Positions 24,560-46,217 of a stretch of 47,287 nucleotides of DNA are shown here, piece after piece. Every line of letters starts with the position of its first letter. The stretch's first letter is position 1. Made by a program: the position numbers and the translations under genes. Source of the stretch: Dehalobacter sp. (GTDB lineage: Bacteria; Bacillota; Desulfitobacteriia; Desulfitobacteriales; Syntrophobotulaceae); assembly GCA_023667845.1 (NCBI GenBank), contig JAMPIU010000034.1, positions 1-47,287 on the forward strand, given 5' to 3'. Below the pieces are notes generated by a model. That model saw only the letters and a list, made by a program, of their open reading frames with translations. It was not told where the DNA came from and did no database searches.

Positions 24560-24585
24560 AATAGAAGTTGAATATATTTATATAA

Positions 24586-24737
24586 TCTTAGGTGCCCCAC
24601 TAAGGGGAGAATAGGAAAATCGGTAATAATCCGATACGGACCCACCACTGTGTAGACGAGTCCCCGCTGATCCACTGGCGTATGCTGGGAAGGTGCGTTC
24701 AGGACGTTCGAGTCTGAGTCAGGAGGCCTGCCTAAGA
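24586..24737 (+). ncRNA. Cobalamin riboswitch aptamer
   Basis: The closing stem TCTTAGG (24586-24592) pairs with CCTAAGA (24731-24737). Inside are the conserved blocks: GGTGCC, the AAGGGGAGAATAGGAA stretch, TCCGATACGGACCCACCACTGT, CCACTGG, GGGAAGG and the B12-box GAGTCAGGAGGCCTGCC (24716-24732). Binding of adenosyl- or another cobalamin should lower expression of cobT, through the terminator that follows. Confidence 0.96.
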
Positions 24738-24782
24738 GGTAAAAGTCTTTCCTGGGTAATGGAAAGCGGCGGTGATGACGGC

Positions 24783-40292: not shown

Positions 40293-40346
40293 GCGGTCAT
40301 CTCTTTCTTTATCAGATATGTATAAATCTTTAGATTTACATGGGTC

Positions 40347-40453
40347 AGTCAACCTAATGGATGGCCGCTTTCGGTCATTGTGTCATCCTGACACAAAATC
40401 CCGCGCTTCGCAATCCATGCTCCGCTTGACACTGTCCATCCATTACGTTGACT
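40347..40453 (-). repeat. Palindromic repeat element A
   Basis: 107 bases bounded by AGTCAACCTAATGGATGG (40347-40364) and its inverse (40436-40453) with one mismatch. On the minus strand the core begins AAGCGGAGCATGGATTGCG and ends CAATGACCGAAAGCGG, like the two other copies. Two hairpins expose GGA in the loop: 40378-40396 (7-bp stem, minus-strand loop AGGAT) and 40410-40420 (minus GCATGGATTGC). It lies upstream of dbpA. Confidence 0.8.
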
Positions 40454-40588
40454 AGTCTGGAGTTAGTCAGTTGTTTTTTTTAGTCAACATTACATTGGAA
40501 TCCAAGTATTAGTTGATATTCTTAAAATAGCCACACAAATAATGATTTGCATTCCGACATGCCGACTTGCTCAAATAACCATATAATC

Positions 40589-40745
40589 AGTCTGTGGGGC
40601 ACTGTTCCGCTGTAAGCGGAGCACGATGCGAAGTGCGGCTTTTTGACGGCCACGGATGGCCTAATGTCGCGATGCCATGGATGGCAAGGAGCGACTCGCC
40701 AAGGATGGCGCAATAACCGGAAAGCGGTATTGTGCCCCACAGACT
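40589..40745 (+). repeat. Palindromic repeat element B
   Basis: 157 bases bounded by AGTCTGTGGGGCAC (40589-40602) and its perfect inverse (40732-40745). The core (from AAGCGGAGCACGATGCG to CAATAACCGGAAAGCGG) holds three hairpins, GGCCACGGATGGCC (40648-40661), TGCCATGGATGGCA (40673-40686, inside a GTCGC/GCGAC stem) and CGCCAAGGATGGCG (40697-40710), each with CANGGATG across the loop. I see no ORF that explains it. Confidence 0.85.
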
Positions 40746-40875
40746 AACCCTAACAAACGAATCGATCTATTATTATTCTATTTAATAATATTTCTGCAGA
40801 TCAGGAATCAATTCCTTTATTCTTTCTTCCAAGTGCCTTATTAACGTTAAATGCATAGTAGCAACCTAAACAAAT

Positions 40876-46111: not shown

Positions 46112-46217
46112 AACGTGACGTAATCTAACCGCGCCCAAGCGGAACACGGATGTGCAGTGCGGCTTTTTGCGCCAAGGAGGGCGCAATAGCCGAAGAGCGG
46201 TTAGATTACGTCACGTT
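46112..46217 (+). repeat. Palindromic repeat element C
   Basis: 106 bases bounded by a perfect 21-bp inverted repeat (46112-46132 and 46197-46217). The core AAGCGGAACACGGATGTG ... CAATAGCCGAAGAGCGG matches elements A and B. Hairpins: CACGGATGTG (46145-46154) and GCGCCAAGGAGGGCGC (46169-46184, 5-bp stem, loop AAGGAG), both with GGA in the loop. It lies 27 bases after the IMP dehydrogenase stop. Confidence 0.85.

Follow-up and report, generated by a model that had tools for sequence, protein, structure and literature searches.

The window analyzed here, a 47,287-nt stretch from the genome of a flagellated anaerobe, Dehalobacter sp., holds three palindromic elements, A, B and C, whose hairpin loops repeatedly display GGA. 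This arrangement raises the question as to whether RNA made from such elements might sequester the regulator CsrA, as the first-pass annotation of this DNA had proposed, or whether the hairpins have a different origin. The parts of the three elements are as follows.

40348..40452, minus strand: element A, a palindrome with GGA loops on the minus strand and the outer stem GTCAACGTAATGGATGG / CCATCCATTAGGTTGAC; orthologues in the related genomes G064, G065 and G066
40378..40396, minus strand: apical hairpin of A, TTGTGTCAGGATGACACAA, with GGA in the loop (GAA in the G066 orthologue)
40410..40420, minus strand: first-arm hairpin of A, GCATGGATTGC
40453..40588, no strand: spacer of 136 bp that separates the tail-to-tail pair A (minus) and B (plus); mostly deleted in G064
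40589..40745, plus strand: element B, with outer stem AGTCTGTGGGGCAC..GTGCCCCACAGACT, first arm, 51-nt module and apical hairpin; found as orthologues in G064 and G066, missing from G065
40645..40695, plus strand: insertion module in B, 51 nt, GACGGCCACGGATGGCC..GGCAAGGAGCGAC, which holds two CANGGATG hairpins; lacking in most copies, C among them
40648..40661, plus strand: module hairpin 1 of B, GGCCACGGATGGCC
40673..40686, plus strand: module hairpin 2 of B, TGCCATGGATGGCA
40697..40710, plus strand: apical hairpin of B, CGCCAAGGATGGCG
46113..46216, plus strand: element C, with outer stem ACGTGACGTAATCTAACCGC..GCGGTTAGATTACGTCACGT, without the module
46145..46154, plus strand: first-arm GGA motif of C, CACGGATGTG
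46167..46186, plus strand: apical hairpin of C, TTGCGCCAAGGAGGGCGCAA, with a 7-bp stem

Each element consists of one long outer stem around shorter hairpins, and the folding energies lie 7 to 8.6 standard deviations below those of shuffled sequences (z = -7.6 for B and -8.6 for C). The individual hairpins described in the first-pass annotation are present: the three in B, and both of those on the minus strand of A, GTGTCAGGATGACAC and GCATGGATTGC. In C, the first-arm motif and GCGCCAAGGAGGGCGC at 46169-46184 are likewise found, but the stem of the latter, given as 5 bp, is in fact 7 bp long and spans 46167-46186. Elsewhere in the window, a cobalamin riboswitch (Rfam RF00174) was recognized on the plus strand at 24573-24749, with 88 bits.

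A, B and C are members of one dispersed mosaic palindromic repeat family. A profile search found 68 elements in 1.90 Mb (52%) of the Dehalobacter sp. genome, which suggests a total of about 130, roughly a hundred or more, for the full 3.65 Mb, and B used as a BLAST query gave 47 matches in that 3.65-Mb genome. With a covariance model built from 34 copies, 70, 82, 89 and 49 copies were counted in four relatives, three of them from the same genus and one from another; genome statistics were drawn from samples of 1.22 Mb or 1.90 Mb of the Dehalobacter sp. genome. Read along the GGA strand, a repeat runs from an outer arm through the first arm, AAGCGGAGCATGGATTGCGCAGCGCGGC, to the apical hairpin, for example TTGTGCCATGGATGGCACAA, which displays CANGGANG, and then through GCCGAAAGCGG to the closing arm. 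The outer arms fall into several types unrelated to one another, GTCTGNGNGCCACAG and GTCTCCGTAATGGATGG among them, and the complement is always found at the opposite end; the outer stem is thereby long and variable between copies, yet self-complementary. Where the 51-nt module is present, it is seated in the 5' flank of the apical stem and contributes two more CANGGATG hairpins. The 1.90-Mb sample contains 14 pairs of copies arranged tail-to-tail and separated by 41-312 bp, of which A/B is one. About seven copies carry a flipped apical hairpin, with TCC in the loop, and one copy is chimeric, with two different outer arms.

Several individual sites in the genome were noted as well. At C143:107081-107186, a perfect 50-bp apical palindrome is joined by unlike outer arms on its two sides, apparently a chimera in which halves of two elements meet as mirror images. 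The module recurs in tandem, as 51-bp repeats separate from any full element, at C178:55275-55382 and C39:36651-36750. On contig C73, at about 160.5-175 kb (L162:500-15000), lies an integron-like array in which attC-like palindromes, GCCTAACG..GCTGTTAGGCG and GTAGAACG..GTTCTAC variants, recur every 0.5-1.5 kb between small genes; CANGGATG hairpins flank these sites, with GGA always on the plus strand and most genes on the minus strand, and no integrase was seen near the array. Records labeled Candidatus Formimonas, Syntrophomonas, Gracilibacter and Peptococcaceae also contained the module in a pattern scan. The most frequent 10-mers of the 1.22-Mb sample (L083-L142) are dominated by CRISPR-like arrays, whose repeats contain ATTTCAATCCACGCACCCATG and related variants.

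The GGA loop is both enriched and conserved. A census of perfect hairpins around CANxyzNG in 1.22 Mb of the Dehalobacter sp. genome, taken for each of the 64 triplets xyz, placed GGA first, with an excess over expectation of 5.2-fold at a stem length of at least 4, 8.3-fold at 5 or above, and 21-fold at 7 or above (29 hairpins seen against 1.4 expected). Among elements chosen by profile and not by loop, GGA was kept in about 154 of 158 unflipped apical loops (about 97%, a figure that is partly a hand count, since CATGGATG loops were read by eye) from G000, the genome that contains the window, and from G065, G066, G067 and G069. The N positions beside the apical GGA vary, as does the stem. In the first arm, GGA is retained by about 82% of copies and lost from about 18%, and an apical loss is illustrated by the GAA of the G066 orthologue of A. 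Other core segments, AGCG, GCGCGG and GCCG, are invariant to the same degree as GGA.

The outer stems bear on the question of which strand folds. Mismatches were classed on the GGA strand from a symmetric alignment that does not favor G-U, and comprised 132 G-U against 30 A-C cells, or 66 against 25 distinct contexts (p = 2e-5), although these contexts partly depend on one another and some of the excess goes back to a single inherited G-U. Differences between orthologous loci gave 18 G-U against 7 A-C (p = 0.04), and in stems of genus g15, within the same order, the excess is absent (4 against 6). A strand-specific folding constraint is therefore supported for the Dehalobacter sp. repeats, and the GGA strand appears to be the one that folds. 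The G-U preference is compatible with RNA and likewise with folded single-stranded DNA. In DNA hairpins, the G-T pair is the best tolerated mismatch, and the asymmetry between strands thus leaves room for a single-stranded DNA reading.

Covariation, which the first-pass annotation had expected among the stems, was indeed found: double changes occur at 22 of the 34 pairs of the consensus structure, with 160 double-change cells against 47.7 in shuffles. Much of it, however, is the swapping of whole cassettes. At 30 orthologous loci compared between G000, G064, G065 and G066, the outer arms are kept, while the apical cassette or the module differs at about half of the loci, by whole blocks; a single locus shows a different apical hairpin in each of three species. 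Since exchange proceeds in blocks, double changes alone do not prove selection on RNA, and covariation in the apical stem was for the most part not counted as proof of RNA function. The helicase gene beside A and B is 93-96% identical among the same four genomes. At this locus, the A/B pair is present in G064, with its spacer deleted, and in G066, G065 retains only A, and in G067 neither element lies beside the helicase gene.

What ties the hairpins to CsrA is found outside the repeats. The genome contains a single csrA, directly adjoining fliW in a csrA-fliW operon, and its product keeps L4 and the conserved Arg of LRSEVY, which correspond to L4 and the Arg of the (R)(S/E)E(V/I)Y motif, the residues in contact with RNA in known CsrA proteins. 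Both flagellin genes (C73:22185-23930, minus strand; L136) have leaders with UCGCA[U/A]GGAUGCGA and, at the Shine-Dalgarno site, CAUGGAGG; in DNA letters, TCGCA[T/A]GGATGCGA lies 16 nt outside the called start and is followed by CATGGAGG. The leader hairpin of both genes, UCGCANGGAUGCGA, is of the CANGGATG type with a 5-bp stem, and the leader octamers CATGGATG, CAAGGATG and CATGGAGG are among the commonest in the repeats, in a comparison that covers two near-duplicate genes of one genome. In B. subtilis, repression of hag by CsrA operates through two sites in the leader, one of which covers the Shine-Dalgarno sequence, and SELEX with CsrA gave the consensus RUACARGGAUGU, whose GGA sits in the loop of a hairpin (PMC7652899). 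The flagellin leaders examined here carry predicted CsrA sites, as expected for CsrA targets, and their match to the repeats is the strongest argument that the repeat hairpins could be CsrA sites as well.

Together, these observations raise the possibility that A, B and C are mosaic dispersed palindromes of TwoAYGGAY-like architecture whose GGA-strand RNA binds CsrA as a scattered decoy, a proposal for which we consider the case evenly balanced. The GGA strand would fold such that the long outer stem holds out short hairpins, two to four in number, each with an ANGGAN loop; in the flagellin mRNAs, this same hairpin is the predicted site for CsrA. The RNA would then bind CsrA dimers, one hairpin to each binding surface, and the repeats would jointly act as a sponge while also spreading and exchanging hairpin cassettes between copies. 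Judged from sequence, recognition of the repeat hairpins by CsrA is plausible; transcription of the GGA strand, binding and titration are steps that we infer, and we hypothesize that the repeats might in this way sequester CsrA. CsrA is favored as the ligand because of the csrA-fliW operon, the hairpins of the flagellin leaders and the likeness to TwoAYGGAY, for which CsrA binding has been proposed. The first-pass annotation had itself named the lack of csrA, of stem covariation or of conserved GGA loops as grounds for abandoning its reading; csrA was found, stems covary with the reservation given above, and the apical GGA is conserved across five genomes. Its further suggestion of CsrA sites in the 3' ends of mRNAs is not supported as the selected role, and its remark that the repeats were not recognized as a described family needs correction.

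The role in 3' ends bears on the genomic orientation of the repeats. In the frame of the GGA strand, the genes flanking 65 intergenic copies are arranged ++ in 25 cases, -- in 26, +- in 13 and -+ in 1, and a hand count of elements outside pairs gave 12 sense against 14 antisense. The GGA strand thus has no sense preference relative to its neighbors; a part in neighboring mRNAs is not favored, and the reading as a sense-strand cis element in mRNA 3' ends was rejected for this reason. An independent transcript from the GGA strand is possible. A scan for sigma-70-like promoters around A and B found none, and TANNAT, which often stands immediately before the outer stem in the upstream flanks of type-1 copies, was rejected as a sigma-70 promoter of the repeats' own, as it lacks a -35 box and lies too near the stem. 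The decoy proposal is weakened by the neutral orientation, by the result of the promoter scan, and by the first-arm GGA losses and flipped apical hairpins; it is further weakened by the lack of a G-U excess in the g15 stems and by FliW already being an antagonist of CsrA.

Several of these same features would be accommodated if the repeats were non-autonomous mobile or recombining DNA, which is the main rival to the sponge. The GGA strand would here be folded as single-stranded DNA, its NGGA loop would be the contact point of a trans-acting recombinase or transposase, much as in REP/RAYT systems or at integron attC sites, and the likeness to CsrA sites would be coincidental. Neutral orientation and the 14 tail-to-tail pairs with their spacers (41-312 bp) are consistent with such an origin, as are the varying presence of A and B between relatives, the nesting of the module within other palindromes, the chimeric copy, the swapping of apical cassettes at about half of the 30 orthologous loci and the CANGGATG hairpins that also flank the attC-like sites of the cassette array; the tolerance of G-T in DNA hairpins is compatible with the strand asymmetry. 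However, a search of the G000 genome for the Y1 (RAYT) transposase, PF01797, gave no match while its controls were detected, on which ground REP/RAYT mobilization was rejected, and neither a target duplication nor an autonomous, gene-bearing copy was found. Mobility would, moreover, leave the identity of the loop with the flagellin-leader hairpin unexplained, and we regard this reading as fairly unlikely.

A second alternative would be that the repeats are commonplace palindromes of intergenic DNA, tolerated where genes end in the role of weak terminators or mRNA stabilizers, and that GGA persists in them through common descent and homogenization by gene conversion. The strong avoidance of divergent, promoter-bearing gaps, which hold 1 of the 65 intergenic copies yet make up 134 of 610 gaps of at least 150 bp, points in this direction, and cassette exchange would indeed homogenize copies, with AGCG, GCGCGG and GCCG being as invariant as GGA. 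Homogenization agrees poorly, however, with the free variation of the N positions beside GGA, and unrelated cassettes, such as the 51-nt module and the inserts specific to G067, have little in common except their CANGGANG hairpins. The strand asymmetry, with G-U exceeding A-C, is also not what this account predicts, and it is considered improbable.

Returning to the decoy proposal, CsrA-titrating RNAs are known mainly from Gammaproteobacteria, and in Firmicutes the control of CsrA is attributed to FliW. Binding of CsrA by the repeats, if it occurs, would mean that a repeat family, and not a dedicated gene, titrates a global regulator, and it would offer a testable role for TwoAYGGAY, whose function has been unknown since 2010. 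In a bolder form of the proposal, which is tentative and on the doubtful side, the flagellin-leader hairpin would have been copied to about 100 intergenic sites and kept there by exchange, and the activity of CsrA would be set by the summed, genome-wide output of the repeats alongside FliW. Even without CsrA, palindromes that keep their outer stem at each locus and exchange the apical hairpin between close species represent unusual genome dynamics.

As for known families, literature searches on this precise hairpin sequence, on palindromes in Dehalobacter and on CsrA in connection with REP elements found nothing relevant. The first-pass annotation had recognized no described family, and the copies in the window gained no Rfam assignment: against the TwoAYGGAY model (RF01731, gathering threshold 43 bits) none reaches threshold, direct assignment therefore being rejected, and the region 40300-40800 with A and B gives nothing even at E <= 10. 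Other copies, however, do match this described family, one in the Dehalobacter sp. genome (C106:3806-3961, 45.4 bits) and several in relatives, where the matches include copies of the repeat family; of these relatives' copies, one on C36 of G069 scores 45.2 bits, above the threshold, and those in L203 and L205 score 37.2 and 34.9 bits, below it. TwoAYGGAY occurs in Clostridiales (PMC2864571) and, with Bacillaceae-1, was proposed as a CsrA-binding RNA by Gardner and Eldai (PMC4333381). It is also present in many g15 genomes (L323-L347), each of which has 1-7 copies; their outer stem is the palindromic GCAAACTTCCGTT..AACGGTTAGTTTGC, and most have a convergent gene whose stop codon is 15-65 nt away. 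These copies tend to lie antisense to the downstream (3'-side) gene (12 -- against 2 ++), unlike the prediction of a simple mRNA role. Among g15 genomes at least 90% complete, TwoAYGGAY was found in 21 of 22 with csrA and in neither of the two without it, a co-occurrence that depends on those two genomes, one of which is 9% contaminated. With a permissive filter, 0 of 7 csrA-lacking genomes of at least 90% completeness carry it, and three less complete genomes without a csrA match do.

CsrB, CsrC and RsmX/Y/Z likewise repeat GGA in the loops of differing stems, and the octamers of the repeats fit the SELEX consensus RUACARGGAUGU (PMC7652899); yet those RNAs come from one or a few dedicated genes of Gammaproteobacteria with regulated promoters, whereas the repeats are about 100 palindromes without a recognized promoter in a CsrA-FliW host. 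Of the hallmarks of a CsrB/RsmY-type RNA, several GGA loops and a csrA gene are thus present, and no dedicated promoter emerged from the sigma-70-like scan of A and B. REP/BIME elements are high-copy intergenic palindromes that form inverted pairs and mosaics (PMC2817692), and the repeats are also many, intergenic and often in inverted pairs, but they are larger, combine variable outer stems with a constant core, and reside in a genome without the Y1 transposase that accompanies REP/BIME with RAYT. With the CsrA sites of the hag leader, the repeats share the CANGGATG hairpin, and the leaders have CATGGAGG at the Shine-Dalgarno site; the leaders, however, belong to a defined mRNA, while the repeats are intergenic and lie in either orientation. 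By membership tests, TwoAYGGAY is the closest known family, although the window copies are not formal members. Both have a long outer stem around two adjacent hairpins with AYGGAY-type loops, and the repeats differ from TwoAYGGAY in being high-copy and dispersed, with insertable modules, tail-to-tail pairs and exchanged apical cassettes.
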